A stretch of 64,000 bases of DNA from Kutzneria viridogrisea (GTDB taxonomy: Bacteria; Actinomycetota; Actinomycetes; Mycobacteriales; Pseudonocardiaceae), in NCBI GenBank assembly GCA_014138725.1, contig JACJID010000002.1, positions 1 through 64,000 of the forward strand, in the 5' to 3' direction. Within the stretch, counting starts at the first letter, position 1. Every line of letters starts with the position of its first letter. Of the stretch, positions 9,304 to 60,856 are shown in pieces. The notes beneath the pieces were generated by a model. The model was not told where the DNA came from, did no database searches, and worked only from the letters and a program-made list of their open reading frames with translations. A program made the position numbers and the translations under genes.

Positions 9304-9420
9304 GGGATTCGCGCTCCCCAGAACGGGACTCGCGCTCCGGACAGCGGGACACGCCGTACCGGAACGTCCGACACACCACACCGGAACGTCCGACACGCGC
9401 TGTCGCGAGCGCCGACACGC
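9304..9420. repeat. Phased 21/22-bp repeat array
   Basis: Three copies of a GGGA(C/T)(T/A)C core start at 9304, 9325 and 9346, exactly 21 bases apart. The array then switches to CCGACAC cores at 9368, 9390 and 9412, exactly 22 bases apart. The spacers vary. It fills the gap between the convergent SARP and oxidoreductase genes. The same cores form arrays at 43227, 57374 and 60690. Confidence 0.8.
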
Positions 9421-9428
9421 GGCCGGGG

Positions 9429-10310
9429 TCAGGCGGCCCGCACGAGGCGCTCGCACAGCTCGTGGGTGCGCAGCGCGTCCTCGGCGTCGAGCAGCGTGCC
9501 CGCGCGCACGGCCTCGAGAAAGGCCAGCACGATCTGCTCGATGCCGCGCTGGCGGGCGACCGGGGTCCAGTCGCCACGGCGGTGCGGCACACCGGAGTCC
9601 ACGACCTCGGCGAGGTTGACCACCCGCCGGGTGCGGTCCCCGCCGGAGACCTCCAGCACCTCCTCGGCCACTCCCCCGCGCCGGTTCATGGTGCCGATCG
9701 CGGTGAAGCCGTCCCCGGACAGGTGCAGCACCGCGTGGTCCAGCAGCCCGTCGCGCACTCGGGTCCGCACGTCCACGTGCTCGACCTCACCGGGTGCCAG
9801 GAAGCGCAGCGTGTCCACCACGTGGATGAAGTCGTCGTAGGCGAACGAGCGCGCCCGCTCGGGCAGGTTGACCCGGTTCTTCCGCAGCAGGATCAGGTCA
9901 CGCGGGTGGTCGAGGCACTGCGCGTAGCCCGGGGCGTACCGCCGGTTGAAACCGACCATCAGGCTGACCCCGCGCCGCTGGGCCAACTGGACGAGCCGCT
10001 CGCAGGCGGCCAGCTCGTCCGACAGCGGCTTGTCCACGTAGGTGGGCACCCCGGCCTCGAGCAGGTGCGTGACGATCTCGGCGTGGGTCGAGGTCGGCGA
10101 GTGCACGAAGGCCGCGTCCAGGCCCGCGCTCAGCAGCGAGTCCAGGGTGGAGTGCCGGTGCAGCTCCGGGATCCGGTGGGTGTCACCGACCCGCCGCACG
10201 GTGGCCGCGGTCCGCGAGTGCAGGTGCGGCTCGACCCCGGCGATCGTGGTCAACACCGGTAGGTACGCCTTCTCCGCGATGTCACCGAGCCCGATGCAAC
10301 CGACCTTCAC
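9429..10310 (-). CDS. Gfo/Idh/MocA-family NAD(P)-dependent oxidoreductase
   Basis: The protein is 293 residues. An N-terminal Rossmann domain has GLGDIAEKAYLP, and YVDKPLS carries the family lysine that is near the active site. The C-terminal part has the usual substrate-binding sheet. These enzymes oxidise or reduce sugars, inositols or related polyols. The substrate cannot be told from sequence. The start is GTG at 10310. It stands alone between a repeat array and an SDR gene on the same strand 143 bases upstream, so operon membership is doubtful. Confidence 0.85.
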   Translation of the reverse strand: MKVGCIGLGDIAEKAYLPVLTTIAGVEPHLHSRTAATVRRVGDTHRIPELHRHSTLDSLLSAGLDAAFVHSPTSTHAEIVTHLLEAGVPTYVDKPLSDELAACERLVQLAQRRGVSLMVGFNRRYAPGYAQCLDHPRDLILLRKNRVNLPERARSFAYDDFIHVVDTLRFLAPGEVEHVDVRTRVRDGLLDHAVLHLSGDGFTAIGTMNRRGGVAEEVLEVSGGDRTRRVVNLAEVVDSGVPHRRGDWTPVARQRGIEQIVLAFLEAVRAGTLLDAEDALRTHELCERLVRAA

Positions 10311-10453
10311 CGACCACTCACCGTCCAGAACTCGTGTGCCCCTCGACCGGGCGAGAACCCCGCCCGACGCACCCTATCCGCCGCCCCGGCGAAACCGCGC
10401 GCGATCTTGCCCGGCTGGTGCGCAGGAACTCACGTGGTCGTCGGGCGGCGGGC

Positions 10454-11401
10454 TCACGAGGACTGCTCGGCCTGTTCCTCCACCGGGAAGTGCAACCGGG
10501 TGAGCTGCTCGGACACCTGCCACAGGCGGGCGGCCAACTGCTCGTCGCGGCCCAGGCGGCTCACCCTGGCCGGGGCGGGCGAGCCGGTCATCTCCAGCGG
10601 GCCGCCGGGGCCGTAGTAGCCGCCGGGTGCCGCGTCCGGGCTGGTCGCGGCGAACAGGCTGGGCAGCGCGCCGCGGGCGGCGGACTGGGCGAGCCAGGGC
10701 AGCCGCTTGAGCCGCCCGACGAAGTCCTCGCGCCGGCTCTCCCGGCCCAGGCTGGGGCCGCTGCTGTGCAGGTTGGTGCGGGTGGATCCGGGGTGCGCGG
10801 CCACACTGCGGATGCCCCAGCCGTTGCGGGTGCTCAACCGCTGCAACTGCTTGGCGAACAACAGGTTCGCCAGCTTGGACGCGCCGTACGCGCGGTTGGG
10901 GCCGTAGGAGCGCTCGCTCTGTAGGTTGTCGAACGCGATGCGGCCGATGCGGTGGGCGAGGCTGCTGACCGTGACGACCCTGGCCTGCCCGGCGGCGCGC
11001 AGCAGCGGCAGCAGCCGCCCGGTGAGCGCGAAGTGGCCCAGGTGGTTGGTGCCGAACTGCAACTCGAAGCCGTCGGAGGTGGTCACCCGCCGGGGTACGG
11101 CCATCACCCCGGCGTTGTTGACCAGCAGGTCGATCGGGCGCCCGAGGTCGAGCAGCTCGCGGGTCATGCGCTCGACCGAACTCAGCTCGGACAGGTCCAG
11201 CTCCACCACCGAGACCGCCGCCCGCGGCAGGCCGCGCAGGATCTCGGACTCGGCCCTGGCCCCCTTGGCCTCGTCCCGCACCGCGAGCACCACCTCGGCC
11301 CCCGCGGCGGCGAGCCCCCGCGCCGTCTCCAGGCCGATCCCGCTGTTGGCCCCGGTCACCACGGCCAGCGCCCCGCTCAGGTCGGACGAGTCAACAGCCA
11401 C
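10454..11401 (-). CDS. Short-chain dehydrogenase/reductase, retinol-dehydrogenase-like
   Basis: The protein is 315 residues. It has the SDR cofactor motif TGANSGIG near residue 16, NNAGV, the catalytic Ser in VTVSSLAHR and YGASK. It resembles the extended WW-oxidoreductase or protochlorophyllide-reductase-like SDRs often found next to a TetR gene. The substrate is unknown. It is divergent from the TetR gene 11470-12045, with only 68 bases between them, and a palindrome in that gap could let the TetR protein repress both genes. Confidence 0.88.
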
Positions 11402-11424
11402 AGGAGCCCCCTCCGGCAGTAAGA

Positions 11425-11438
11425 TGAACGTACCTTCA
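11425..11438. promoter_or_regulatory. Candidate TetR operator
   Basis: TGAACGTACCTTCA is an almost perfect 14-bp dyad (TGAA, GTAC centre, TTCA). It lies in the 68-base gap between the divergent SDR and TetR genes. Its place suggests autoregulation by the TetR protein. Confidence 0.5.
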
Positions 11439-11469
11439 CTTTTATCACGCCGACCGGCCGGGAGTCAGC

Positions 11470-12045
11470 ATGTGCGCCTCACGCCAGCTGCGCGCCGACG
11501 CCGTCCGCAACCGCCAGCGCATCCTCACCGCCGCGCGGGAGCAGGTCAGCAGGCACGGGCCGGAGGTGGCCATCGAGGCCATCGCCGCGGCGGCCGGGGT
11601 CGCCGTCGGCACGCTCTACCGGCACTTCCCCACCAAGACCGACCTGGTGCGCGCGGTCATCCAGGAGCGCGCCGAGGCGATCGTCGCCGACATCGAGGCC
11701 ACCGCGGCCCGTGTCACCTCGGGCGCGCGGGCGATCACCGAACTGCGCACCCTGGCCACGCGCCTGCTCGACACGATCGGTGAGGACCTGGCGGTCAAGG
11801 CCGCCGCCGCGGCCATGGACGCCGCGCTGGCCAGCAGCGAGCAGGGTGAGCTGGCCCGCCGCGCCGAGGCGGCGGGCCTCGTGCTGTTCACCGCCGCGCG
11901 CGCCGACGGGGACCTGCACCCCAGCACCACCGCCGCCGACCTGACGCTGCTGATGATCACCGCGCCCGCGGACCAGCCGCCCGCGGTGCGCGCCCGCTGG
12001 CTGGAGGTGTTCCTCGCCGGGCTGCGCGCCGGGCCGGGCACCTGA
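11470..12045 (+). CDS. TetR-family transcriptional regulator
   Basis: The protein is 191 residues. The N-terminal DNA-binding domain is clear (residues about 12-58), with [13 protein letters not shown] and [17 protein letters not shown]. The C-terminal ligand domain is Ala-rich, as in SbtR-like members. It most likely represses itself and the divergent SDR gene through the dyad at 11425. The ATG start fits the usual short N-terminus of the family. The ligand is unknown. Confidence 0.9.
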
Positions 12046-12101
12046 GCACGCGCTGGGACCGGATCGGGTCGGTCGCTGGCAACGGTTAGCGGCTTGCGCC
12101 C

Positions 12102-13137
12102 GGTCCACAAGTCCTGGCTACCATCGGCGGGTGGCCGGTCGCGAGCTGAGACTGACCGCCGCCGAACGTGCCGAGCTGCACCGGCTCGCCCGCGGCGGCG
12201 GCTCGCGGCAGGCGGTGGCCCTACGCTGCCGGATCGTCCTGGCCTGTGCCGAAGGCGCGGGCAACGCGGAGATCGCCAGGCAGTTGGCGGTGAGCCCGCG
12301 CACGGTGGGCCGGTGGCGGGCGCGCTTCCTGGAGCAGCGCGTCGCGGGCCTGGCCGACCGGCCGCGTTCCGGCGCCCCGCGCCGGATCAGCGGGGCGGAG
12401 GTGGCCAGCGTGGTGAGCGCGACAGTGATCGACCTCAGCCCCACGGGCAGCCGCTGGTCCAAGCGCGCCATGGCCGCGCACAGCGGGGTCTCGGCGAGCA
12501 CGGTGGGCCGGATCTGGCGGTCGTTCGGGCTCAAACCGCACCTGTTCCGCGCCAGCACACCGCTGTCCTCCAGCGACCCGTTTCTCGGCGTGGCCGAACT
12601 CGTGGGGCTGTACTGCGAAGCACCGGAGCGGGTCATCGCGATGTGCGTGGTGCGCGAGGGGGCCCGCACCTCCGCGGGCGCGGCGCGCACGACCGAACGC
12701 GACATCCGCCGGCTGCGCGAGCGCACCTCCGCCGTGCGCAAAACCCTTGACGCACAAGCTGTTCGCGGTGCGAGCCGACCGAGGGTGAGCGCGTTCCTGC
12801 GCGAGCTGCACAGCAAGGTCCCCGCCGGGGTCGGTGTGCATGTCATCTGCGACAACCACGTCATCGAGCAGGCGGTGGCCGCCCGGCGCTGGCAGCTCAC
12901 CCACCCCAGGTTCCACCTGCACTTCACGCCCACGGGCGAGTACTGGGCCAATCTGGTGGAGCTCAAGCTGGTGGAGCTGGCCGTGCGGGACCTGCGTCGC
13001 GGCTACGACAACAGCCTGCGCTCGATCGAGCAGGCGCTGCTGCGACACGAGTCCGCCACGGGGCCGTTCCGCTGGATCCGGCCCGTGGACGAGCTGCTCG
13101 CCGAGCGCGCGGGCGAGGTGCACTGAACTTCTGGACC
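12102..13137 (+). mobile_element. Remnant of an IS630-like element
   Basis: The transposase-like gene is bracketed by GGTCCACAAGT (12102-12112) and ACTTCTGGACC (13127-13137), an 11-bp inverted repeat with one mismatch. The span of 1036 bases is close to normal for IS630-type elements. I see no clear TA target duplication at the ends. The encoded transposase lacks key catalytic residues, so the element should not move on its own. Confidence 0.45.
12131..13126 (+). CDS. Degenerate IS630-family transposase, possibly domesticated
   Basis: The protein is 331 residues. The N-terminal helix-turn-helix (AEIARQLAVSPRTVGRWRARF) and the C-terminal HFTPTGEYWANLVELKLVEL match IS630 transposases. The second Asp (ICDNH) and the final Glu remain. 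The first Asp, in the usual CVDEKSQ, is missing: the protein reads CVVREGAR. The following Asp-Arg-Thr stretch and the HGT..LFAAL block are replaced by an Arg/Ala-rich linker. The frame is nevertheless intact, with normal GC-rich codons. It should be catalytically dead. It could survive as a DNA-binding protein or be a recent casualty. The start is GTG at 12131. Confidence 0.75.
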   Translation: MAGRELRLTAAERAELHRLARGGGSRQAVALRCRIVLACAEGAGNAEIARQLAVSPRTVGRWRARFLEQRVAGLADRPRSGAPRRISGAEVASVVSATVIDLSPTGSRWSKRAMAAHSGVSASTVGRIWRSFGLKPHLFRASTPLSSSDPFLGVAELVGLYCEAPERVIAMCVVREGARTSAGAARTTERDIRRLRERTSAVRKTLDAQAVRGASRPRVSAFLRELHSKVPAGVGVHVICDNHVIEQAVAARRWQLTHPRFHLHFTPTGEYWANLVELKLVELAVRDLRRGYDNSLRSIEQALLRHESATGPFRWIRPVDELLAERAGEVH

Positions 13138-13181
13138 AGTCAGCTCCCCCTGTGGCACGGGCCGTTCCTACCGTCAGCGCC

Positions 13182-13943
13182 ATGACCGAACACGACGAAT
13201 CCCCGCCGTCGACCACCACTCGACGTCGCGTGCTCACCGCCATGGGCGGTATCGGCCTCGGCGCGGCGGCAGCAGGTGTGCTGGGTGGTGCGGCCTCCGC
13301 CGCCCCCGAGACACCGGAACTGCTCCGCTGCTCCACGATCCTGGCCCCCGAGGAGATCGAGGGCCCGTACTACATCCAGGGCGAGCAGCTCCGCAGCGAC
13401 ATCACCGAGGGCAAACCCGGTGTGCCTGTGGAACTGAGCTTCACCCTGGTCGACGTCAAGCGTTGCGTTCCCCTGCCCAACGCCTCGGTGGACGTCTGGC
13501 ACTGCGACGCGCTCGGCTACTACTCCGGGTTCACCGCCAACGACCCCGACTCACCCGCGCTGGCCGGTGACGACGGGGTGCCCACCGACGACCTGACCTT
13601 CTGCCGCGGCGTGCAGGTCAGCGACACCAACGGGTTGGTGGTCTTCCGCACGATCTACCCGGGTTGGTACTACGGGCGGACCATCCACATCCACGTCAAG
13701 GTCTACACCGGTGGCCGCGAGGTGCACACCGGTCAGCTGTACTTCCAGGACCAGTTGACCGCGCAGGTCGCGGCGCTGGACCCGTACCGCACCCACCAGT
13801 TCCGCCGGTGGCGCAACAGCGAGGACTTCATCTACCTGCAGCAGGGCGGGGCGTCCTCGGTGCTGAAGGTCACCCAGGTGCGGCCGGGCTCCGTGGCGGA
13901 CGGGCTGCGGGCGTCGATCTCGCTGGGGCTCAACGTCCGCTGA
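13182..13943 (+). CDS. Tat-exported intradiol ring-cleavage dioxygenase-like protein
   Basis: The protein is 253 residues. A twin-arginine signal (TTRRRVLTAMGG, then a hydrophobic stretch ending in ASA) precedes a domain of the protocatechuate/catechol dioxygenase fold. Iron-ligand residues are visible: Tyr in EGPYYI and a second Tyr and two His in GWYYGRTIHIHVKV. Known intradiol enzymes open catechol rings with Fe(III). The exported actinomycete branch is less well characterised. The start ATG at 13182 sits directly before the Tat signal; the longer open frame upstream lies inside the transposase gene. Confidence 0.87.
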   Translation: MTEHDESPPSTTTRRRVLTAMGGIGLGAAAAGVLGGAASAAPETPELLRCSTILAPEEIEGPYYIQGEQLRSDITEGKPGVPVELSFTLVDVKRCVPLPNASVDVWHCDALGYYSGFTANDPDSPALAGDDGVPTDDLTFCRGVQVSDTNGLVVFRTIYPGWYYGRTIHIHVKVYTGGREVHTGQLYFQDQLTAQVAALDPYRTHQFRRWRNSEDFIYLQQGGASSVLKVTQVRPGSVADGLRASISLGLNVR

Positions 13944-13958
13944 CGGCACCGCCACGGC

Positions 13959-14001
13959 CACCGAGGGGTGCACGGGGTTGGGCGCCGTGGACCCCTCGGT
14001 G
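13959..14001. terminator. Bidirectional hairpin terminator
   Basis: A 17-bp stem with one mismatch (13959-13975 against 13985-14001, arms CACCGAGGGG and CCCCTCGGTG) and a 9-base loop lie between the convergent dioxygenase and LuxR genes. It is unrelated in sequence to the palindrome family at 17575 and 26015. Confidence 0.75.
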
Positions 14002-14049
14002 CGTGCGGCAGGGAGGGGATCGTGGTGGGACCGTTGGGCTTGGGGTGGT

Positions 14050-16599
14050 TCAGACCACCAGGTCGCGCAGCTGCGACCGGGCGGTGACGCCGAGTTTGGG
14101 AAAGCTCCGGTAGAGGTGGGAGCCGACCGTCCTGGGCGAGAGGAACAGCCGCTCGCCGATCTCCCGGTTGGACAGTCCGCTGGCGGCCAGGCGCACGATC
14201 TGTTGCTGCTGCGGGGTCAGCTCGGTCACCGCGTGCGCGGCAGCGGCCGGGGACTCGACACCGGCGGCGCGCAGTTCGGCCTGGGCGCGGGCGATCCACG
14301 GGCGGGCGCCGAGGCGCTGGAAGACCTCCAGGGCCTCGGCGAGGCGGGGGCGGGCGTCCAGGATGCGGCGCTGGCGGCGCAGCCACTCGGCGTGGTCGAG
14401 CAGCACCTGGGCACGTTCGAACGGCCACTGGGTGGTGGCCGGATCTCCCAGTGCCGCAAGGAAGTCCGGTTCCTCGTTGTGCAGAAGGGCGCGGGCACGG
14501 CGGATCAGCGCGTGCATGCGGGGTGAGGTGGCGCCGGCGAACCGCTTCTGCGTGCGGGCGAGGACCTCGGCGGCCTCGTCCTGGTGGCCGGTGCGCACCG
14601 CGGCAGCGGCCAACTCGGCGATGGCCGGTGGCGACATGTGGTAGTGCACGGGATCGCCCGCGGCGGTGAACACCGCGCGGAACTGCTCCCAGGCGGCTTC
14701 GTGGTCCCCGCTGGCGACGGCGGCCATGCCCAGCGCCCAGCGGGCACGGGTCGCGACGGCACGGCTGCGCCCGGGCTGGATCGTGGCCAGGACGTGCTGG
14801 GCGAGGTGCCGGGCCTGGTCCACCTCACCCTGCAGCGCGAGCGCGCCAGCTTGCAGGGATTGCAGTGCGGCACTGAGGTGTCCGAGCTTGGCGTTGGCGG
14901 CCAGGCCTGCCGCGTTGCTCGCGGCGAGCCTGGCCTGGGCCCAGTCCCCGTGGTCGAGGTACGCCCAGCCCGCGGAGCAGTCCAGCACGGTGGGCAGTTC
15001 ACCGCGGGCGCGCCAGCGGTGCAGCGCGTCGTCGAAGATCCGCACGGCCAGCGCGGTCTCGTCCACCATCCACGCCATGGCCCCGACCGCGGTGAGCCGC
15101 TGGGGATCGCCCGCGGCCCGCTCGACCAGTTCCGGCAGCACCGAGGTCAGCTCCTCGCGGTGCGCCAACGGATCGGTGAGGGCACGGGTCCACGGGTCGC
15201 CGCCCGCGGCCAGCTCGTGCACCCGTCTGCGGCGCGGTTCGTCACCGGAGTAGAAGCAGGCGACCGCTGCGGAAGCAAGCGCTTGCTCCGCCACCTCGGG
15301 GCACGCGGCGGCGCGCAGCAGCACGTCCACCGCCGACTCGTGCCGTGAGGTGACGGTCAGCACCTGGCCGAGCCGGAGATCGGCCAGCGCCAACAGGGTC
15401 GGGTCCCCGGTGAGCGTGCCCACCCGCGTGGCCAGCGCCTCGACCCACGGGGCCTGGCCGGTGGCCACCGCGTCCCCGGCGGCGAGCACGAACCGCCTCG
15501 CCCGCTCGTGCGGATCGGGGCTGAGCTCGGCGGCCCGTTCCAGTGCCGTGGCCGCGGCGGCGTGCCCACCCCGTTGGCGGGCACGGGAAGCGGTGTCCTC
15601 CAGGGCCTGTGCCACGGGTTCGTCGGGGCTGACCGCGGCCGAGGCGAGATGCCAGGCGCGGCGATCGGGTTCGGCGGCGAGCAACTCCGCGAGCTCCAGG
15701 TGGGCGCGCCGCCGGGTGTCCAGTGGTGCCGCGTGGTGCACGGCCGAACGGATCAGCGGGTGCCGGAAGCGCAACCGCCCGCCGACCGCGTGCAGCAGCC
15801 CGACCCGCTCGGCGGGGGCCAGCTCGGCGGCGTACCGGGTGGCCACCAGGTCGGCGGTGTCGGTGGCGGCCAGCAGCAGGGCGTGCCTGGTGTGCGCGGG
15901 CAGCGCGGCCAGGTCCGCGGCGAAGATCCGCTCCAGCCGCTCGGGCAGGGGCAGCAGGTCCTCGGCGGAGTCCACGCGGGCCAGCTCGACCAGGGCGAGC
16001 GGGTTGCCCGCGGCCAGCGCCAGCACGCGCAGCCGCTGCCTGCCCACGGGCGGGTTCGGCTGGCGGTCCAGCAGCTCGTTGGCGGCCAGCTCGTCGAGCG
16101 GCCCCAGCGGCAGGGTCGGGAACTCGGCGAACCCGGTCTCCGCGCGGGCGGCCAGCAACAGGGCCAGTGGCTCGTCCTCCACGCGGCGGCCCACGAAGGC
16201 CAGCACCGCGCGGGTGCCCTGGTCCAGCCACTGCACGTCGTCGGCGACCACCAGCAGCGGGCCCAGCTCGGACAGCAGGGCGAGCACCGCGATGCCGATC
16301 AGCAGGCGGTCCGGCCGGTGGTCGGTCAGGCCGAACGCCCCGTGCAGGGCCTCGCGCTGGCGCCGTGGCAGGGCGGCGGTCTCGGCCAGCACCGGGTGCA
16401 GCAGCTGGTGCAGGCCCGCGTAGGGCAGGTCGGCCTCGTCCTGTGTGCCGGTGACGCGCAGCACGCGGCGGCTCGTGTCCCCGGCGGCCAGGTCGAGCAG
16501 GCTGCTCTTGCCCGCGCCCGGCTCGCCGGTCAGCAGCAGTACACCGCTGGTCAACCCCAGCACGGCCGCGCGCTCGCCGTCCCGGCCGATCAGGTCCAC
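14050..16599 (-). CDS. Large ATP-binding LuxR-family regulator (LAL type)
   Basis: The protein is 849 residues. A P-loop (GEPGAGKSS, about residues 25-33) and Walker B-like LLVVADDVQW form the N-terminal ATPase. A long helical-repeat middle follows. The last 65 residues are a LuxR helix-turn-helix (LTPQQQQIVRLAASGLSNRE...SPRTVGSHLYR). Such proteins act as ATP- and ligand-responsive activators in actinomycetes. No operator is apparent. It is divergent from the MBL-fold gene, with 73 bases between the starts, so that gene is a possible target. Confidence 0.9.
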   Translation of the reverse strand: MDLIGRDGERAAVLGLTSGVLLLTGEPGAGKSSLLDLAAGDTSRRVLRVTGTQDEADLPYAGLHQLLHPVLAETAALPRRQREALHGAFGLTDHRPDRLLIGIAVLALLSELGPLLVVADDVQWLDQGTRAVLAFVGRRVEDEPLALLLAARAETGFAEFPTLPLGPLDELAANELLDRQPNPPVGRQRLRVLALAAGNPLALVELARVDSAEDLLPLPERLERIFAADLAALPAHTRHALLLAATDTADLVATRYAAELAPAERVGLLHAVGGRLRFRHPLIRSAVHHAAPLDTRRRAHLELAELLAAEPDRRAWHLASAAVSPDEPVAQALEDTASRARQRGGHAAAATALERAAELSPDPHERARRFVLAAGDAVATGQAPWVEALATRVGTLTGDPTLLALADLRLGQVLTVTSRHESAVDVLLRAAACPEVAEQALASAAVACFYSGDEPRRRRVHELAAGGDPWTRALTDPLAHREELTSVLPELVERAAGDPQRLTAVGAMAWMVDETALAVRIFDDALHRWRARGELPTVLDCSAGWAYLDHGDWAQARLAASNAAGLAANAKLGHLSAALQSLQAGALALQGEVDQARHLAQHVLATIQPGRSRAVATRARWALGMAAVASGDHEAAWEQFRAVFTAAGDPVHYHMSPPAIAELAAAAVRTGHQDEAAEVLARTQKRFAGATSPRMHALIRRARALLHNEEPDFLAALGDPATTQWPFERAQVLLDHAEWLRRQRRILDARPRLAEALEVFQRLGARPWIARAQAELRAAGVESPAAAAHAVTELTPQQQQIVRLAASGLSNREIGERLFLSPRTVGSHLYRSFPKLGVTARSQLRDLVV

Positions 16600-16672
16600 C
16601 AGTCGACTCTAGCCCCAGGTGCAGTCGGCCGTCCGATACCGCCAGGACCGCGGCGGGCGCAGGCTGGTCCGC

Positions 16673-17572: not shown

Positions 17573-17574
17573 GG

Positions 17575-17629
17575 TGCCATGAAAGTGCCGTTCCTGGCAC
17601 CTGACGCCAGGAACGGCACTTTCATGGCA
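17575..17629. repeat. Perfect 24-bp-stem palindrome at a convergent junction
   Basis: Positions 17575-17598 are the reverse complement of 17606-17629, with a 7-base loop. The arms carry GAAAGTGCCGTTC and GAACGGCACTTTC. It fills the gap between the convergent MBL and LysR genes. The same core recurs at 26015 and 37484. Confidence 0.85.
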
Positions 17630-17630
17630 G

Positions 17631-18584: not shown

Positions 18585-18634
18585 GCGGCCGGAGTCTACA
18601 AGCGGATCGTTTGGGCCGAAACCACCTGAGGTTC

Positions 18635-18669
18635 CATCAGCATTCCTGATGACCTTGTCTTATTAGACA
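18635..18669. promoter_or_regulatory. Paired dyads, candidate LysR operator of the isonitrile operon
   Basis: CATCAG-N5-CTGATG (18635-18651) and TGTCT-TATT-AGACA (18656-18669) are two perfect inverted repeats lying side by side in the gap between the LysR gene and isnA. Two adjacent sites of this kind are the usual LysR recall-and-activation layout. Confidence 0.5.
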
Positions 18670-19681: not shown

Positions 19682-19693
19682 GAGAGAAGGCCG

Positions 19694-43226: not shown

Positions 43227-43373
43227 GTGTCGGCGGCTCACACAGCGCGTGTCGGACGCTCGCGCACCGCGTGTCGGCGCTTCAGGCACCGCGTGTCGGC
43301 GCTTCCCGTACGGTGTGTCGGCGCAACACGGCGTACCGCTAGCGCCGACACGCCGTACCGGGACGTCCGACAC
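43227..43373. repeat. Phased 22-bp GTGTCGG repeat array with inverted copies
   Basis: GTGTCGG cores begin at 43227, 43249, 43271, 43293 and 43315, exactly 22 bases apart. The unit reads roughly GTGTCGGCGCTTC plus nine variable bases. Two inverted cores (CCGACAC) follow at 43345 and 43367, also 22 apart. The array fills the convergent gap between PucR 2 and the glycosyltransferase. Inverted copies would allow a long hairpin. Confidence 0.85.
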
Positions 43374-48335: not shown

Positions 48336-48339
48336 CGGC

Positions 48340-54300: not shown

Positions 54301-54753
54301 GATCCCGCCACAGGCCCACACGGGCACGCCGATCCGTTCGTCACCAAGGATCTTCTGTACCAGCACGAAGCAACCCAGCTCGCCGACCTGGCCGCCCGCC
54401 TCGTTGCCGCGCGCGATCAGCCCGTCCGCGCCCGCTCGCACGGCCGCCACCGCCTCGGCCACGGAGGTCACCTCGGCCAGGACCAGCCGCCAGCCGTGCA
54501 CCTCCTCGATCCGCCAGGGCGAATTCCGGCCCAGCACAACGGTGTCGACCCGCTCGTCGAGCACGGCGGGGGTCAGCGCGCAGCCCTCGGTCACGCGCAC
54601 CGCGGACCCGGCTTCGAGCAGTTCCAGCTCGTGCGGCTCGGCCGTGCCGAGGTCGAGCACGCCGAGACCGCCCGCCGCGGTGACGGCCGCGCACAACGCG
54701 GCGCTGGGGTGCACACCGAGGACGAGTCTGTGGTGCTCCGCGAGCGATCCCAT
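48340..54753 (-). CDS. PUFA-synthase-like megasynthase: NMO-NMO-KS-AT-ACP-KR
   Basis: The protein is 2137 residues. Two nitronate-monooxygenase/PfaD-like domains lead (about 1-200 and 265-570). The second keeps the His of GSECGGHIG (402), while the first reads GNEAGGQVG with Gln at 122. A KS follows with Cys812 (DAACASS), His947 (EAHGTGT) and His987 (IGHTKC). Then come an AT (GHSYGE, Ser1246), an ACP of PUFA type (LSVDSIKR, Ser1619) and a KR (GGARGIT at 1867; YAAANDALEALA). This set matches secondary lipid synthases that build long acyl chains iteratively. ATG 54753 has GGAGG four bases upstream and fixes the start; the open frame continues through the SDR gene but is a shadow there. Confidence 0.9.
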   Translation of the reverse strand: MGSLAEHHRLVLGVHPSAALCAAVTAAGGLGVLDLGTAEPHELELLEAGSAVRVTEGCALTPAVLDERVDTVVLGRNSPWRIEEVHGWRLVLAEVTSVAEAVAAVRAGADGLIARGNEAGGQVGELGCFVLVQKILGDERIGVPVWACGGIGPNTAAAAVVGGATGVVLDVQLALLPESELPEDLRTAIATSDGTNTSVVDGHRALTKNRELPIGQDAFLAKQFAQRYGTVARSLSAIRTAVDEALRVPDSAALAPGSPLAVEFGTDLPVAQGPMTRVSDRAGFAGAVADAGGLPFIALALATGEQTRVMLAEARDRLGDKPWGVGVLGFAPEELRAAQLAVIREVRPTHALIAGGRPDQAKALEDVGISTFLHVPSPGLLAQFLAAGARKFVFEGSECGGHIGPRSAFSLWEAQIAVLTDHLDRDRSARPQILFAGGVHDERSAAMITALAEPLTRRGARIGVLMGTGYLFTAEAVAHGAIQPLFQRQVVQAETTALLETAPGHVTRCVPSPFTETFHEFGARLTAEGVPEREVWQRLEQLNVGRLRVASKGTKRDGDQLVAVDEGEQLAEGLFMAGQVVVLRSEITTIAALHDSVTTGAARFRAAVSVSSSEVDESPAPLDVAIVGMACMFPGAGDLDRFWANIVANTDSVTEVPAERWNTDTYFAEGSTGRSNGDTTPSKWGGFLPRIPFDPLSYGIPPSTLAAVEPVQLLALEVAQRALADAGYAQGGFDRERTSVVFGAEAGSDLATATSLRMALPSYLEKIPEELAAQLPELTEDSFPGKLANVISGRIANRLDLGGANYTVDAACASSLAAVDVACKELVSATSDVVLCGGADLHNAIDDYLLFSSVGALSATGRCRTFDSTADGIALGEGVACVVLKRLADAERDGDRIYAVIKGVGSGSDGKALGLTAPRAEGQRRALERAYRGAGVSPAQLGLVEAHGTGTVVGDRTELETLTTVFTADGARAGTCVLGSVKSQIGHTKCAAGLAGLIKTAMALHTGVKPPTRHVTEPNPAWQGESSPFAFTSKALPWTQPPAERLAGVSAFGFGGTNFHVVVQGHRSAARSGLREWPAELFTFSEDKQVERLLELAGSGAWSLRDLARTAARHTGPARIAVVARDIAELVDLLRAARDGRTEPERGLYRAGQVEPGKLAVLFPGQGSQRPGMLAELFVAFPEIRRFLELAGRTAEVMLPADTFGERPDRLRDTRFAQPALGVTGLAVNWLLGRAGVHADMLGGHSYGELVALSAAGAYDASTLLELSKARAEAILAAAGDDPGGMAAVAATSAEIESLVDGRVVVANHNSPRQVVISGPTAELQIAMETLRAKGFAAKSIPVACAFHSSVVAPAGDLFAQALAQQEIGSPRVPVWSNRTASPYPEGGVRAELAAQIGAPVRFVEQIEAMYADGARTFLEAGPGRVLGGLVEAILGDRPHTVISCERPGATGLTGFLHALAQLAVRGPGLRTGWLFAGRDARDVSSLTPAETPGWTVDGQLVRTKDGHPVPGGLAPARLIGELAPQGGRDAVLNEYLRNSRELIAAQRDVLLSYLNAAPVVVDAVPVPVPAVAVPEEPVVRDEPDVLGTIIGIISERTGYPREMIDPELDLESDLSVDSIKRTEIAGELTARIGAKADLDELVKARTAGRMAALLAGNAPETPGGQAPQRFLFELVAAAERPPGDPVSLLGANIVIAGGSEELAEEVAGQLSARGAMVSVVDGLPEFDEIELVDGLISLHGLGSGEEPVLPAGFAMFRSVLVKRPRWVIAVADQQGVTGLRGFFRTLHREYPDTIARLVEVDTATSPEAVGTMLTEELLIEAAEPVVIRSEYRRSTFELVPVDLGSEIAPDATALGLNRDSVLVLVGGARGITARFAVALAAATGCRIELAGRTVLSDEREHPDVLAAQDLVALRGVLARLGGDPATIDRRARAVLAGREVETTLRELRAHGSQARYHTLDVRDTDAVRQFVKEIHAEHGRVDGVVYAAGVIEDRLVADKDTESFDRVYGTKVDGASALLAELAELPGKTRFTVLFGSIAAALGNRGQSDYAAANDALEALAGQWSLRTGARALTVHWGPWAPTDQHGGMVTPELGRSYAQRGISMIDPEQGVASLLRELAWGSPSVRSVVYTASGW

Positions 54754-54785
54754 GAGACCTCCGTTGGTCCGCGTGCGCAGCCGGG

Positions 54786-55574
54786 TCACCGGAGCACGCG
54801 CTGCTGGGCCGCGATCCACTTGTCGGGGTCGGCGGCCTTGCGGGCGCTGAGCTCTCCGACCTCCGGGTGCGGCAGGATGAGGAACCTGTGCTCGGCCAGC
54901 CCGCGCACGGTCGCCTCGGCGACCTCGGCCGGCTCCAGGATCGGCGCGGCACCGGCCACGGCGCGCGCCGCCGGGTGTCCAACTTGGACACCGGGCATCA
55001 GCAGTTCGGTGCGAACCCCCCACGGGCACAGCGCGCTCACGCCGACCCCGTGCTGGCCGTAGGTGAAGGCCAGCCACTCGGCCAGCGCCACCGCCGCGTG
55101 CTTGGTCACCGAGTACGGCGCGTCCCCCGGCAACCCGAGCAGGCCCACCGCCGAGGCGGTGATCAGCAGGTAGCCCTCGCGCCTGCGCACGAAGGCGGGC
55201 AGCACGGCCTGGGCCAGGTGCACGTGGGCCATCACGTTGACCGCCCAGGAGTTGGCCCACTGGACCGCACCGGCGTGCACCCCCATGCCGGTGGCCACGC
55301 CCGCGTTGGAACAGACCAGGTCCGGGTCGCCGAACTCGGCCGTCGCGGCGCCGACCAGCTCGCTGACCTCGGCGGGCCTGGTCACGTCGGTGCGCACCCC
55401 GATCGCGGGCACACCCAGCTCGCGGACCTGTGCCGCCACCTGCTGGGCGGCCGGGCCGTCCAGGTCGGCCAGCACCAGGCCGCGCGGCCCCTCGGCGGCG
55501 AACCGCACCGCCATGGCCGCGCCGATACCCCGGCCCGCACCAGTGATGACGACCGCCTTGTCGCGAATTTCCAC
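54786..55574 (-). CDS. Short-chain dehydrogenase/reductase of the lipid operon
   Basis: The protein is 262 residues. TGAGRGIG near the N-terminus, SNAGV, and YSVTKHAAVAL give the SDR cofactor site and catalytic Tyr/Lys. It is the first gene of the megasynthase operon, 32 bases before the next start, so it probably reduces a keto group in the product or precursor. The start is GTG 55574 with GGAGG five bases upstream; in-frame codons further up belong to the promoter. The substrate is inferred from position only. Confidence 0.88.
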   Translation of the reverse strand: MEIRDKAVVITGAGRGIGAAMAVRFAAEGPRGLVLADLDGPAAQQVAAQVRELGVPAIGVRTDVTRPAEVSELVGAATAEFGDPDLVCSNAGVATGMGVHAGAVQWANSWAVNVMAHVHLAQAVLPAFVRRREGYLLITASAVGLLGLPGDAPYSVTKHAAVALAEWLAFTYGQHGVGVSALCPWGVRTELLMPGVQVGHPAARAVAGAAPILEPAEVAEATVRGLAEHRFLILPHPEVGELSARKAADPDKWIAAQQRVLR

Positions 55575-56072
55575 GAGCTCCTCCGCCGCCACGGCACCAG
55601 GGGAACTCCCCTGGTGGAGCGGATATTTCGGGCTTCGACGAGAACGTGCCCAGAACGTAGGGTCGGCCTTCACACAGGGTCAACCGGGCTCGGGAAAGTT
55701 CTTGTACCCGCAGTACCGCCCCGCGGAGCTTTTGTCAGGATGTGAGCACCTGGGGCCTGGTCGCGACACGGCTGACACGCACCTGGCTACAACAACTCAA
55801 CCTGGTGCCAACCTCGGGCTTGACGGCGGCACCGTCGGTGCGCGGATCCCCAAGAACTGTCATTGATCGCCAATTGTGTGGTTGCCGTGACTGTGACGGG
55901 CTGACAAGGGTGCCGCCTGCGCTTGCGCCCCCGAACGGGGCTGGTTAGCTTGTGGGTTACATACCGGTAATTGGCCGGGATGGTGCCAGTACAAACCAGC
56001 CATCGACACGCCTCCCGTCGGGAGGTCCCCTGTCGTGCGCATTTGCATCACTGGCGATGCAAAGGAAGAAGG
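55575..56072. promoter_or_regulatory. Divergent control region of the lipid operon and surface-protein gene
   Basis: This 498-base gap has no supported gene. It holds a weak PucR-like site at 55891-55907 (CTGTGAC-N3-CTGACAA, with TGT and ACA at the same spacing as the sites at 39445, 40430, 41817 and 59339), a half-site TTGTCAG at 55732, a short CCTCCC-GTC-GGGAGG hairpin at 56011-56025, and a second hairpin over the ribosome site. Long leader sequence ahead of the surface-protein gene suggests post-transcriptional control. Confidence 0.4.
56042..56063 (+). promoter_or_regulatory. Leader hairpin next to the ribosome site
   Basis: TTTGCATC pairs perfectly with GATGCAAA across a 6-base loop. 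The 3' arm runs into the AAGGA ribosome site of the surface-protein gene, so folding could hide the site. It does not match a riboswitch class that I recognise. Confidence 0.4.
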
Positions 56073-57314
56073 ATGGTTGTGAATCATCGCAAAGGTTCGA
56101 AGAAGGTGTTCGCGGGAATAGCCGCGGTCGGTGCCGCCGGTCTGGTCACCGCGGGTCTGGTGGTGGGTGCGGGCACCTCGATGGCCGCCCCGGTCACGCT
56201 GACCCAGAACTACACCTGCCCGTTCCCCCTGATCGGCAACCAGACGATCAAGGTGGTCGTCACCTCCGACATCCCGTCGAGCATCCCGGTGGGCCAGGCG
56301 ACCGGCGTGTTCAACATCAAGGCCGTCTCGACGGTGCCGGAGACCGCGACCCAGGGGCTGAACCTGGTCGGCGCTACCTCCATCGAGGGCACTGCCGTCT
56401 CGGGCGATGAGGTGGTGGCTCCCGAGGCGACCCTGCCGGTCAACGTTCCGGTGAACATCGCCAAGACCGACATCCCCGCATCGGGCGCCTTCGACATCGT
56501 GGCCACCGGGCAGACCCCCTCGCTGACCTTCAGCAAGGCGGGCAGCGCGACCATCAACGTCAAGACGCTCAAGCTCACCATGACGCCGAAGAAGGCCGAT
56601 GGCAGCCCGACCGGGCTGGGCACCTTCGACTCGGCGTGCACGCTGAACAGCGGTGAGCCCACGCAGCTCACCAAGTTCGACATCACCGGTGGTGGTGGCA
56701 CGACCACCACCACGCCCGCCCCGCCGACCACGACCACCACCACGGCGCCGCCGACGACCACCACCACGACCACGGTGCCGCCGACGACCACGACCACCAC
56801 GCCCGGTGGTGTGAAGTACAGCTACACCCTGGCGGGCACCTCCGCGCTGAAGAACCTCAACGGCTCGGTCCCGCTGTCCGGCAGCATCAACGCCGACCTG
56901 GACCTGGGCACCAGCAAGTACACCGCGGACCTGGCGTTGGAACCCACCAGCGGCAAGTTCAGCCTGTTCGGCTTCCTGCCCGTGACCTCGCAGGTCGCGT
57001 TCTCCTCGGTGGGCAAGACGACCGGGACGGTGACCGCCGGTGCGCTGGTCTCCAACTCCAAGCTGAACATCAGCCTCCCGCAGGTGACCCTGTTCGGCAT
57101 CCCGATCAGCAACTCGCCCGACTGCCAGACCACGGCCCCCTCGGACATCAACCTGAAGTCCGGCCCGGGGTTCGACCTGCTCAAGGGCGGCAAGCTGGCC
57201 GGTGAGTACTCGATCTCCTCGCTGAAGGGCTGCGGCTCCTTCAACGACTACATCAGCGCCTTCACGGCCAGCTCGGGCAACACCATCGACATGACGCTGA
57301 CCGCCAAGCACTGA
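56073..57314 (+). CDS. Secreted DUF6801-type surface protein with Thr/Pro-rich linker
   Basis: The protein is 413 residues. A signal peptide (VFAGIAAVGAAGLVTAGLVVG, ending SMAA) leads to an N-terminal beta domain (TLTQNYTCPFPLIGNQ...) that I recognise as DUF6801-like. A linker of Thr and Pro runs over about 40 residues (encoded at 56693-56812). The C-terminal domain (LDLGTSKYTADLALEPTSGKF...GGKLAGEYSISSLKGCG...SGNTIDMTL) is the same type as in the two Mce-linked proteins. No anchor is seen. ATG 56073 follows AAGGA by six bases. The linker DNA is repetitive because of its codons, not as a mobile repeat. Confidence 0.82.
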   Translation: MVVNHRKGSKKVFAGIAAVGAAGLVTAGLVVGAGTSMAAPVTLTQNYTCPFPLIGNQTIKVVVTSDIPSSIPVGQATGVFNIKAVSTVPETATQGLNLVGATSIEGTAVSGDEVVAPEATLPVNVPVNIAKTDIPASGAFDIVATGQTPSLTFSKAGSATINVKTLKLTMTPKKADGSPTGLGTFDSACTLNSGEPTQLTKFDITGGGGTTTTTPAPPTTTTTTAPPTTTTTTTVPPTTTTTTPGGVKYSYTLAGTSALKNLNGSVPLSGSINADLDLGTSKYTADLALEPTSGKFSLFGFLPVTSQVAFSSVGKTTGTVTAGALVSNSKLNISLPQVTLFGIPISNSPDCQTTAPSDINLKSGPGFDLLKGGKLAGEYSISSLKGCGSFNDYISAFTASSGNTIDMTLTAKH

Positions 57315-58021
57315 CCCGCCCCACCCCGGTGCCCCTGTCGCCCCCCGCGACAGGGGCACCGCCATGCCCCCACGAGTCCCGCCCCGCGGGGCGCGAGTCC
57401 CGGCCACCGAGGCACGAGTCCCGCTTTGAGGCCCGCGAATCCCGCTGACCTGCACGTGAGTCCCGGCCAGGAGGGCCGTCCCGCCGAGTCAGCGCCGCCT
57501 CGCCATGTCGCGTGCCGTTCAGGACGTTCAATGTCCCAAGGGGCACCTTTGGGACGTGCTGGGGTGGGGTGCCGGCTCAGCACTGGGTGCCGTGAAGGTG
57601 CCCCTTGGGACGCTCAGTGTCGCGAAGGGCACCTTTGGGACGTGGGCGCATGGCCCGTGTGACGTGGGCGCGTGGCCCGGCGAGCCTGTTCTGGGCCCGT
57701 GCCGCCGTGTCGCGGGCCGTTCGGGACGTTTACCGTCGCGAAGGGCACCTTCCTGGCACCGCAGAGGCGCGCTGCGAAAGGACCTTTCGCTGCGTTCAGC
57801 GCAGTGAAAGCCACCTTCGCGGCGGTCGTGGCAGGCGCACACCATCGCCAAAGGCACCTTCGGGGCGGGTCCGTCCCGCCGAGTCAGCGCCGCCTCGCCA
57901 TGTCGCGTGCCGTTCAGGACATCCAACGCCGCGAACGGCACGCGACACGGCGGGAGCGAGGTGGCGCACGCACACAAAAGCGCCCCGCACCGGAGTGCGG
58001 GGCGCCTGCGGGGCGGCCAGG
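57315..58021. repeat. 707-base repeat cluster between convergent genes
   Basis: No gene is supported here. Five inverted GAGTCCC cores begin at 57374, 57395, 57416, 57437 and 57458, exactly 21 bases apart. A 50-bp sequence at 57476-57525 is repeated without change at 57871-57920. Hairpins include AAGGTGCCC (57595-57603) with GGGCACCTT (57627-57635) and an imperfect stem at 57773-57820 whose 3' arm matches the palindrome at 103-151. Open frames that run through the region are Arg/Ser/Gly-rich and share the repeat period, so they are not coding. Confidence 0.8.
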
Positions 58022-59218
58022 TCAGCAGTTCGACGTGGCGGGGGTCCCGGCGATCCGGTCCTTGAGGAACTGGAGGACGTCGGCGTTACCGGTGTAGACC
58101 AGGGTGATGTGGTCGGTCTGGTAGGTCTTCCACGTGATGTTGGCGCCCGCCTTGCAGTACGTGGCGTGCAGCGCGGCGGCCTGCGAGTAGTCGACGAGGT
58201 CGTCGCCGGTGGCGTGGTACTCGAACACGGGGACCTTGGGCGGGGTGCCGCCGAGCTTGTTCTCGCCGACCCGCGCGAGCCATGGCGGGGTCAGCACGGG
58301 GCTGCTGGTGGTGTAGTCCTGCAGCTTCTTGTCCTTGTAGTTGAGCAGGAGCTCCAGGGTGCACGAGGTCTGCTGGAGCTTGGCGAACTCGGTCCGGCCG
58401 GTGTCGGTCAGGTACGAGTCGAGCTTGAGGTCGGGGTAGGCGTTGTCCAGGCCGATCAGCGAGTACGCGAGCAGCCCGAAGCCCTTGTGGCCGTCCAGGG
58501 ACAGCGCGACCTGCACCAGGTCGGCGGGCACGCCGCCGGCGGCGATGCCGACCAGGTTCAGCTCGGGGGCGTAGGTCGGCTGCTGCTGACCGGCCCACAT
58601 CGCGGCGCCGCCGCCCTGCGAGTAGCCGCGGAACACGACCTTGGCCTTGTCGGACAGGCCGGTCTCGGTCAGTCGGCTGGCCGCACGCACCACGTCGATC
58701 ACGGCGTGCCCCTCGGACTGGCCGGTCACGTAGGTGGTGCGCGAGGTGGGCCGGTAGCCCTCGTAGTCGGTGAGCGCCACGGCGAAACCGCTGTTGAGCA
58801 GGTCGTTCACACCCGGTTGCTCGTACAGGGCACCGATGGCGATCATGTTGGACGGGGCGCAGCGGAAGGCGGGGCCCTCGGTGCCCGCGGCGAAGCTGGC
58901 GATCGGGGCCTTGGCCGGGTCGGCGCCCTGCGGCACCATGACGGTCCCGGTGACCACGTCGGGCTGGCCAAGCGCGTCGGTGGACAGGTACATCACCTGC
59001 CACGCCTTCACCGCGGGACGGGGAAATCCGACGTTGATCTGGCGCCAGCGCACCACATCGCCGGGAGAACCGTTGGGCAGCGGTGAGGGCGGCACGTAGA
59101 AAGCGTCACCGGGTGGGGAGGGCGGGGTTGTTTCCGCCGTGGCGGTGCCCACGGTGAACACCGTGGTCAGCGCCAGGATCACGGGCAGGAGCACCCGATA
59201 TCGCGAACGAGTGCGCAA
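58022..59218 (-). CDS. Secreted lipase (LIP family)
   Basis: The protein is 398 residues. A signal peptide (VLLPVILALTTVFTVGTATA) leads to an alpha/beta hydrolase of the secretory lipase type, with nucleophile GYSQGGG, an Asp in ATGDDLVDY and a His in QTDHITLVY. Cys residues (FRCAP, TSCTLE, ATYCK, final Cys) suggest disulphides. It would release fatty acids outside the cell, which the Mce system could then import. The start is uncertain: TTG 59218 has GGAGG at a good distance, while GTG 59227 overlaps that site. It is divergent from PucR 3. Confidence 0.88.
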   Translation of the reverse strand: MRTRSRYRVLLPVILALTTVFTVGTATAETTPPSPPGDAFYVPPSPLPNGSPGDVVRWRQINVGFPRPAVKAWQVMYLSTDALGQPDVVTGTVMVPQGADPAKAPIASFAAGTEGPAFRCAPSNMIAIGALYEQPGVNDLLNSGFAVALTDYEGYRPTSRTTYVTGQSEGHAVIDVVRAASRLTETGLSDKAKVVFRGYSQGGGAAMWAGQQQPTYAPELNLVGIAAGGVPADLVQVALSLDGHKGFGLLAYSLIGLDNAYPDLKLDSYLTDTGRTEFAKLQQTSCTLELLLNYKDKKLQDYTTSSPVLTPPWLARVGENKLGGTPPKVPVFEYHATGDDLVDYSQAAALHATYCKAGANITWKTYQTDHITLVYTGNADVLQFLKDRIAGTPATSNC

Positions 59219-59338
59219 GGGTCGCACCTCCAGAAGGGAGAAACACGAAGTGCATTCACGAGTCGGGCACACACAAAGAGCCCAGAATGCGGTGAACAAT
59301 GTTACCGCCAAGTAGCCGGTGAATCAACGGGACAACTT

Positions 59339-59353
59339 TGTCAGCGCTCAACA
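59339..59353. promoter_or_regulatory. TGTCAG-N6-ACA motif upstream of PucR 3
   Basis: TGTCAGCGCTCAACA lies 111 bases before the start of PucR 3 and about 120 bases before the divergent lipase gene. A wider inverted repeat, GACAACTT (59331-59338) with AAGTTGTC (59367-59374), frames it. It could control both genes. Confidence 0.5.
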
Positions 59354-59463
59354 GTTATCCGGAACGAAGTTGTCGAGCGGACACAAGCACCATCCTTATT
59401 TGACAGGGCACCGTTCCCACTCCTAACGTCAGTGTACGCGATTCCCTGCCCAGCGAGGTGGCG

Positions 59464-60687
59464 ATGATCAGGGCTGATCTCACCATTGCGGAAAACAACG
59501 AGCGCATCGACGACGCCCGCCAGTTGTGGGCGAGGGTGTCGGCGCAACAAGCCGACATGCTCAGGCCGTACGCCAACTCACTGGCCAGGGACATCATCGC
59601 CGAGATCCAGCGCGGTGTGCCCGCCTACGCCCAGCCGCTGCGCGGCAAGTTCGGCCAGGTGCTGGTCGGCGGGGTGGAGCGGGCGATCCTGCAGTGCTTC
59701 GAGAGCAGCGGCAACCCGGAGGCCTCCACCGACGAGTGGGCGGCCTGGTTCCGCTACTCGGGGCGGGTGGAGTTCACCGAGGGCCGCACCATGGACGCGT
59801 TGCAGACGGCGGTGCGCATCGGGGCGCGGGTGGCCTGGCGCCACCTGGCCGCGATCGGCCGCTCGCTGGGCATGTCCACGGAGAACCTGCTCATGATGGC
59901 GGAGGCGATCTTCGCCTACGTGGACGAACTGTCCGCGGTGGCCATCGAGGGCTACACCGAGGCGCAGGCCCAGGCCGCGGGCACCTTCGAGCGGCGGCGC
60001 AGGCAGTTGCTCAAGCTGGTGCTGGCCGAACCCACGTCCTCGGCCAAGGCCGTGCGGGAACTGGCCGCCGCGACGCAGTGGCCGGTGCCCACGCACGTGG
60101 CCGCGGTGGCCTTCGAGTACCGGGAGGACCAGTTCGACCTGTCCGGTCTGGAGCCGGGCGGCACCGCGCTGGTCGACTTCGAGAGCGACAGCCCGTGCAT
60201 GGTCACCTCGGCCCCGGAACAGGACCTGCGGGGGCACTGGGGTGATCGCCGGGTCGCGGTGGGGCCGACCGTGCCGCTGGCACAGGCCGCGCGCTCACTG
60301 CACTACGCGCAACGGGCCATCCTGTTGGCACAGCGCGGGATCATCCAGGTCGATGGGCCGATCTGGTGCCACGACCACCTGTCCAAGCTGATGCTGTTCA
60401 CCGACGAGTTCCTGCTCACCCACCTGACCCGGCGCAGCCTGCACCCCTTCGAGGGCCTGACGGTCAAGCAGCGCGAGCGGCTCTCGGCCACCCTGCTGGC
60501 CTGGCTGGACACGCACGGCGGGGTCAACGAGATCGCTGCCCGGCTGGACATCCACCCGCAGACCGTGCGATACCGCATGCACCAGATCGAGGAACTGGTC
60601 GGGCCCCAGCTGTCGATCCCCGAGGAACGGCTCAAGCTGGAGATCGCCCTGCGCGCCGAGCAACTGCTCGCCGAAACCGACCGCTGA
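59464..60687 (+). CDS. PucR-type helix-turn-helix regulator 3
   Basis: The protein is 407 residues. It is clearly a paralogue of the genes at 40599 and 41936: LQTAVRIGARVAWRHL, MMAEAIFAYVDELSAVAIEGYTEAQAQA and the C-terminal helix-turn-helix ARLDIHPQTVRYRMHQIEELVG. The start is ATG 59464 with GAGGTG just upstream. It is divergent from the secreted lipase and convergent with the GH92 gene. A copy of the family's common motif lies in its promoter. The effector is unknown; a fatty acid or lipid fragment would suit the context. Confidence 0.88.
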   Translation: MIRADLTIAENNERIDDARQLWARVSAQQADMLRPYANSLARDIIAEIQRGVPAYAQPLRGKFGQVLVGGVERAILQCFESSGNPEASTDEWAAWFRYSGRVEFTEGRTMDALQTAVRIGARVAWRHLAAIGRSLGMSTENLLMMAEAIFAYVDELSAVAIEGYTEAQAQAAGTFERRRRQLLKLVLAEPTSSAKAVRELAAATQWPVPTHVAAVAFEYREDQFDLSGLEPGGTALVDFESDSPCMVTSAPEQDLRGHWGDRRVAVGPTVPLAQAARSLHYAQRAILLAQRGIIQVDGPIWCHDHLSKLMLFTDEFLLTHLTRRSLHPFEGLTVKQRERLSATLLAWLDTHGGVNEIAARLDIHPQTVRYRMHQIEELVGPQLSIPEERLKLEIALRAEQLLAETDR

Positions 60688-60689
60688 GC

Positions 60690-60856
60690 GGGACTCGCTG
60701 CCCTCAGAACGGGACTCGCGCACCTGTAGACGGGACTCGCGGTCCTGCGGCCGGGACTCGCGGTCCTGAGAGCGGGACTCACGCACGCCAGAACGGGACT
60801 CGCGCGCCTGTGGGCGGGACTCGCGGTTTTCACACACCGCGAGTCCCGCCCACAGG
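60690..60856. repeat. Phased 21-bp GGGACTCGCG array ending in a 21-bp-stem hairpin
   Basis: GGGACTC cores begin at 60690, 60711, 60732, 60753, 60774, 60795 and 60816, each exactly 21 bases apart. The usual unit is GGGACTCGCG plus 11 bases that often contain CCTG. The last copy (60807-60827) is matched by a perfect inverted copy at 60836-60856 across an 8-base loop. The period is a multiple of three, so both strands show open frames with seven-residue repeats (such as ESRPQDR). It sits between convergent PucR 3 and GH92 genes. Confidence 0.88.

Follow-up and report, generated by a model that had tools for sequence, protein, structure and literature searches.

Helically phased arrays of short repeats at gene ends in Kutzneria viridogrisea and related actinobacteria

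Four phased arrays between converging genes

The first 64,000 nucleotides of contig JACJID010000002.1 of Kutzneria viridogrisea (Pseudonocardiaceae; assembly GCA_014138725.1), hereafter the window, hold four arrays of short direct repeats in which a heptamer core, GGGACTC or GTGTCGG, recurs every 21 or 22 bp with variable filler between successive copies. Reading of the sequence bears out an initial annotation, made from the letters alone, both in the position of these arrays and in their exact phasing; the change of period from 21 to 22 bp that it saw within the first array is real, as are the hairpins that it attributed to inverted copies at the ends of the second and the fourth. The arrays, the stems found with them and the genes on either side are as follows (RNA z, folding score relative to shuffled sequence).

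9304..9418, minus strand: array of six units with spacings of 21, 21, 22, 22 and 22 bp, RNA z -0.29; cores start at 9304 (GGGATTC), 9325 (GGGACTC), 9346 (GGGACAC) and 9368, 9390 and 9412 (all CCGACAC); between a SARP-like regulator gene (plus strand, ends 9243) and an oxidoreductase gene (minus strand, ends 9429).
43227..43373, no single strand: array of five GTGTCGG units (plus strand) at 22 bp, then two inverted units, RNA z -5.03; stem of 16 bp with at most one mismatch; between a PucR-type regulator gene (plus strand, ends 43216) and a glycosyltransferase gene (minus strand, ends 43388).
57327..57361, no single strand: terminator-like hairpin, read from the sequence, that follows the stop codon at 57314 and precedes the next array, from which it is separate.
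57374..57464, plus strand: array with a 21-bp period, its five GAGTCCC/GAATCCC units all in a single orientation (GGGACTC on the minus strand), RNA z 0.27; between a DUF6801 gene (plus strand, ends 57314) and a lipase gene (minus strand, ends 58022).
60690..60847, minus strand: array of eight units, seven direct copies of GGGACTC at 21 bp and one inverted, almost filling the gap between a PucR-type regulator gene (plus strand, ends 60687) and a GH92 gene (minus strand, ends 60865).
60807..60856, no single strand: perfect 22-bp stem of the last unit of the 60690 array and its inverted copy, filler included; a candidate bidirectional terminator.

Since all eight flanking genes carry Pfam domains in their called directions, the four gaps are indeed convergent. 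The RNA z of the 60690 array is -5.82 when the inverted unit is included (60710-60858, plus strand) and -0.08 when only the direct units are folded (60684-60822, minus strand). Lone heptamers are not enriched in the window (GGGACTC, 20 against 15.1 expected; GTGTCGG, 29 against 24.6), and no Rfam family matches there at its gathering score.

Abundance and period across the genome

The arrangement recurs far beyond the window. In the whole genome (G000, 10.25 Mb), exact GGGACTC pairs at 21 or 22 bp number 1081 (580 + 501) and exact GTGTCGG pairs 236 (121 + 115), and the reversed-pattern control gave 0 for either core; what departs strongly from chance is this pairing. A scan for repeated 7-mers that presupposes no core, run over the gaps of a 1.26-Mb sample, returned 1365 occurrences at lag 21, 520 at 22, 1177 at 42 and 304 at 44, against 5 to 92 (median 28) at the other 49 lags between 8 and 60; lags 21 and 22 also stand out when gaps rather than 7-mers are counted (lags 15-35). 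The period, first noticed at four places, thus holds outside them. Among seeded arrays the unit spacings were 378 at 21 bp, 104 at 22 bp and 29 other, a distribution that is partly built in, arrays having been seeded and extended at 21/22. The sample contains 594 copies, 466 of the GACTC type and 128 of the GTGTCGG type, about five positions being called as both, and 52 array gaps; extrapolation gives some 2,900 unit copies and, scaling the sampled gaps by exact pairs, some 250 array junctions for the genome.

A second contig, C1, shows local peculiarities. Between about 20000 and 425000 it carries long mixed arrays with a filler of their own and a GTGTCGG subtype, and this stretch may have been acquired or may belong to a chromosome arm. 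At C1:400756-401182 four-unit blocks are repeated four to five times, and from 421 kb to 1.3 Mb no GGGACTC pair occurs among the pairs listed. On C2, the contig that begins with the window, an array at 507587-507751 alternates in orientation through eleven calls, with spacings of 19 and 2.

A kept core and a drifting filler

The 21-bp unit has eight core positions, CGGGACTC, at 1.4-1.7 bits each, the remaining positions carrying 0.03-1.15 bits; the 22-bp unit has the core GTGTCGG (CCGACAC on the other strand). Units are asymmetric, not palindromic. The two cores form one family, because the 9304 array passes in phase from GGGATTC and GGGACTC through GGGACAC to CCGACAC, a passage that also accounts for its shift from 21 to 22 bp. 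Where a GTGTCGG-type unit is followed by a GGGACTC-type one, 6 of 8 neighbours stand at 21 or 22 bp; in the opposite order (n = 14) there are 1 at 22 bp, 5 double calls and 8 at other distances. Two unrelated repeat families were accordingly rejected, on the in-phase passage and the 6 of 8 phased neighbours.

Neighbouring fillers are seldom identical: for GGGACTC in 3 pairs out of 404, for GTGTCGG in 3 out of 96. Given that seeding on exact cores inflates core conservation, a hold-out test was made on third units, which were never used for array detection. At least six of the seven core bases were kept in 50 of 67 GGGACTC runs, and the filler of these units agreed with that of the unit before at 6.99 of 14 positions against 6.68 expected from composition. 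The corresponding figure for GTGTCGG was 9 of 32 runs, 13 of the 32 arrays having two copies only.

Arrays at the 3' ends of genes

Genes were called by a codon-usage caller of our own, not taken from annotation, and gaps containing N (5000 N in the C2 sample) were excluded. The census of gaps of at least 60 bp in C2:1-860000 is contiguous and, save for the window at its start, was not selected by hits; since the C1 pieces were chosen where matches were listed, C2 is preferred as the source of rates wherever it allows. In this stretch arrays are present in 20 of 58 convergent gaps (34%), 19 of 183 codirectional gaps (10%) and 0 of 106 divergent gaps; in C1 alone the counts are 3 of 15, 8 of 66 and 2 of 43, respectively. 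Thus the preference for convergent junctions is genuine, and the stronger proposal that arrays lie only between facing genes had to be abandoned, 20 of the 39 array gaps of the C2 stretch being convergent and 19 codirectional.

Convergent gaps are often filled by an array almost from stop to stop, some stop codons falling inside the first unit. In the 27 codirectional gaps, arrays begin a median of 14 nt behind the stop of the upstream gene and leave a median of 171 nt before the next start codon. Taken together, the gap census and the distance to the upstream stop establish that arrays mark gene 3' ends, with convergent ends preferred and not exclusive. The initial annotation had also considered a growing repeat tolerated only at 3' ends; of 94 single-family arrays not one has its centre inside a called gene, in keeping with that part of the proposal, although one array extends 51 nt into a gene end. 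A strict sense polarity, suggested by 259 against 82 copies, to which the array-rich C1 pieces contribute much, was not significant per gap and was set aside.

Folding of the arrays as RNA

Single-orientation runs (56) fold like shuffles, with a mean z of 0.00 and 9% below -2. Windows across an inversion (20) have a mean z of -5.16, and convergent gaps without arrays (50) one of -3.35. No stem-like covariation was found between unit positions. Counted over the whole gap, stems of at least 11 bp with loops of up to 20 nt are present in 50 of 67 array-free convergent gaps and in 10 of 15 array gaps holding both orientations, and in all ten of the latter the stem is, by eye, composed of unit sequence; another 8 of the 23 convergent array gaps hold units of one orientation, and 5 of these have no such stem. 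By these counts, hairpins are the normal ending of convergent genes in this genome; inverted units can provide them, which single-orientation arrays mostly fail to do.

Several candidates were discarded along the way. An RNA element was rejected for single-orientation arrays (no structure, no Rfam match). A general replacement of hairpins by arrays was suggested by a count of stems, 10 bp or longer, lying beyond the array (5 of 23 array gaps against 28 of 50 array-free gaps); once longer loops were allowed and each gap was taken as a whole, a difference was left for one-orientation gaps only. Mimicry of a tRNA T-arm, entertained on the strength of GAGTCCC, which we take to resemble a T-loop, was dropped because single-orientation runs form no stem.

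Distribution among relatives

Within the family, 131 of 390 genomes have at least one GGGACTC pair and 21, spread over ten genera, have at least 20. Six congeners have 0-8 pairs against the 1081 here, and 100 kb from each of four congeners showed no 21/22 peak. Among seven other array-bearing family genomes, sampled over 40-60 kb, a 21/22 peak is present in three (G147, G178, G212), one of which uses the core GGGGACAC; G343, sampled around its matches, has the peak too. Array carriers among the matches listed include Amycolatopsis (with A. thermalba and A. taiwanensis), Prauserella, Pseudonocardia, Herbihabitans and Lentzea. Forty-six loci, chosen by actinobacterial name among the matches listed, were classified; 40 matches in the carriers' loci fell as 17 convergent, 15 codirectional, 8 at locus ends and none divergent or genic.

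The class-wide search gave a match in 76 of 394 genomes, most with few; one family, f29 (G635, 83 triple matches; G675, 71), stands out, and we guess it to be Nocardioidaceae. A locus of Nocardioides jejuensis carries an array. Regions of f29 picked around matches have a peak at lag 21 or 22 in 6 of 6 genomes, with cores including GTGACTC and GCCGACTC, and the 20 array gaps listed there are 12 convergent, 7 codirectional and 1 divergent. One f29 locus (L344, in G635) holds a second type of array, with a 21-bp unit of about GGGAGCCGCGCGTCAGCGGAC and no GACTC, which suggests more core words than those searched. Matches outside Actinobacteria were discarded, those inspected being mostly 7-bp microsatellites or near-exact tandem repeats.

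Orthologous junctions

The junction behind a conserved P450 gene was searched in 30 genomes; 23 loci were examined and 21 were readable. Seven of these, in three genera (G342, G343; G328, G329; G260, G261, G262), have an array in the same orientation, of 2 to about 11 units, behind P450 proteins 78-100% identical to the query, and five of the seven finish as TGACCCGCGAG at the facing stop. In G342 the array is homogenised, with seven near-identical units. The 14 array-free junctions comprise 8 in which the gene ends overlap or nearly touch, 1 with a hairpin (G116) and 5 array-free gaps, that of the present genome among them.

The uvrA gene is followed in each of the five congeners (92-94% protein identity) by a stem of 10-22 bp that lies no more than 20 nt from the stop codon. 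In the present genome that place is taken by an array of some 22 units, the first inverted pair of which makes an 11-bp stem. Not one of 20 relatives retrieved has a uvrA array of the GGGACTC/GTGTCGG family, G263 having a G-rich stretch with some 21-bp repetition. Because the facing gene appears to differ among genomes, this is not a clean exchange of stem for array. Behind a DUF349 gene of the congeners a long hairpin stands close by in G222, G223 and G225 and further down in G221 and G224; here a 21-bp stem of inverted units lies amid other units. Terminator-like stems in two relatives, at L373 (behind uvrA) and at L395 and L397 (behind DUF349), share a stem word around GTGAAGGCCACCTTCACTGC, which is perhaps another gene-end repeat.

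Comparison with known systems

Among the papers listed by open-access literature searches none describes such phased gene-end arrays, in agreement with the initial annotation, which did not recognise the repeat as a named family. The closest parallels in geometry are the iterons of plasmid origins, which are direct repeats near two helical turns apart, with a conserved core, that are read by a protein. The present repeats likewise stand at whole helical turns with a kept core; they differ in occupying 52 gaps in 1.26 Mb rather than a single origin (Rep genes were not searched). CRISPR loci have long identical repeats and unique spacers at one or few places, whereas the arrays here have a 7-8 bp core, a constrained filler and 52 dispersed gaps (cas genes were not searched). 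The DNA uptake sequences of Neisseria are short motifs whose inverted pairs behind genes form terminators; they are not known to form tandem phased arrays, and no link to uptake is seen here.

A SARP-like regulator with BTAD and NB-ARC domains (7426-9243) adjoins the first array, and SARP proteins read heptamer direct repeats at 11 or 22 bp; the adjacency is probably coincidental, and heptamer repeats of the SARP/PhoP type at 11/22 bp are retained as a lead only. Three PucR-type HTH_30 genes lie in the window between 40599 and 60687, and a related one at 84-85 kb of C2, near glycosyltransferase genes.

Among interspersed bacterial repeats, the repetitive extragenic palindromes (REPs) and bacterial interspersed mosaic elements (BIMEs) resemble the arrays in placement: one account describes them as numerous in intergenic DNA, where most copies follow coding regions and separate genes that are convergent or unidirectional (PMC3733652). 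The arrays here also stand behind genes and avoid divergent gaps, but REPs are palindromes of 20-40 bp associated with RAYT transposases, and the present units are asymmetric, direct and helically phased. The RAYT domain Y1_Tnp (PF01797) has no match in G000, and mobility by this route was rejected on that ground; it matches in 2 of 14 array-bearing genomes (G178, partially, and G209) and in 6 of 28 of all genomes searched. In Streptomyces, WhiA binds the asymmetric GACAC as a monomer, at sites described as upstream of target genes (PMC3781837). GACAC forms the middle of the CCGACAC units and occurs in the GGGACAC units as well, so that WhiA may be considered, as a lead drawn from motif likeness, as a binder of GACAC units; its sites are not described in that text as phased arrays, and most units here are of the GACTC type. 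The TAACTGA repeats of Beggiatoaceae, which come in many sets and have a patchy distribution among phyla, are also heptamers repeated directly in intergenic DNA; they differ in lying mostly just upstream of start codons (PMC4679880).

A putative protein at gene ends and its rivals

We tentatively favor, at somewhat less than even confidence, an iteron-like reading in which the arrays are tandem sites for a putative sequence-specific DNA-binding protein acting at gene ends. Read-out of the DNA by a protein best accounts for a two-turn period common to different core words, for a core that is kept beside a drifting filler, and for the lack of RNA structure in single-orientation runs; binding along one face of the helix, proposed at first annotation, fits the period and the kept core. 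From the placement of the arrays we infer a role in ending or insulating transcription; protein binding and cooperativity are likewise inferred. The putative protein would be bound every two helical turns, directly behind stop codons. The bound array would then most likely serve as an end-of-gene block or insulator, stopping or buffering RNA polymerase as it leaves one gene for the next, and this block would matter most where genes face each other. Pairs of inverted units could additionally fold in the RNA as ordinary hairpin terminators. Arrays would expand by duplication of units or of blocks of units, after which selection would keep the core and the filler would drift.

Several observations weigh against this reading. 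No binding protein was found. Polarity is weak, codirectional array gaps of C2:1-860000 being mostly sense in 9 cases and mostly antisense in 7. The arrays are dispensable for the genus, since sister species have few or none, and no 21/22 peak appeared in four of the seven family samples (G260, G283, G309, G342) despite 111-166 exact pairs per genome. One-orientation array gaps have a stem in 3 of 8 cases against 50 of 67 array-free gaps (p 0.04, small n), and stemless arrays of this kind could mean that nothing terminates there; an ordinary hairpin is also kept in some array gaps (57327-57361).

The main rival is a functionless satellite, growing by slippage or gene conversion, that persists only downstream of stop codons, where it damages no coding sequence and no promoter. 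This is rather unlikely in our estimation, yet it accords with the lack of gene-centred arrays and of arrays in the 106 divergent gaps, the rarity of arrays in congeners, the variable copy number at the orthologous P450 junction, the homogenised array of G342 and the block repeats at C1:400756-401182. Slippage, however, would copy the core together with its filler, and here the core is kept and the fillers are almost independent; nor does it predict a 21/22 period common to different cores in two families, or arrays at one junction in three genera.

Less probable still are intrinsic terminators acting as RNA, in which inverted-unit hairpins would end both facing transcripts and the direct units would be debris of hairpin turnover. 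Stems in ten of the 15 convergent gaps with both orientations, the strongly negative z across inversions and the perfect stem at 60807-60856 speak for such terminators, but five of the eight one-orientation gaps have no 11-bp stem, single-orientation runs fold like shuffles, and hairpins leave the helical period unexplained. Least probable of all, although the convergent preference and two-turn phasing would suit it and E. coli BIME-2 arrays are proposed gyrase and supercoil-relief sites, is that gyrase or a nucleoid protein on the arrays relieves positive supercoils between converging genes, given that roughly one array gap in two is codirectional and that the cores vary between species although gyrase is conserved.

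Implications

More broadly, these repeats may belong to a class of actinobacterial gene-end satellites in which the geometry is the invariant: a fast-evolving putative DNA-binding family would occupy sites every 21-22 bp behind stop codons, with a core word specific to each species, as a protein barrier replacing or supplementing hairpin terminators. This wider proposal is doubtful, a degree more so than the satellite rival. If the protein reading is true, some 250 junctions in one bacterium would end at protein-bound arrays and not at hairpins alone, a mode of ending or insulating genes for which no bacterial precedent was found in open-access papers. Even if the arrays are functionless, they point to selection or conversion that acts on the core but not on the filler, an outcome not predicted by simple slippage. 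The combination of a constant period with changing core words offers a way to trace the protein, and the uneven occurrence among species supplies natural pairs, with and without arrays, bearing on how converging genes avoid collisions.

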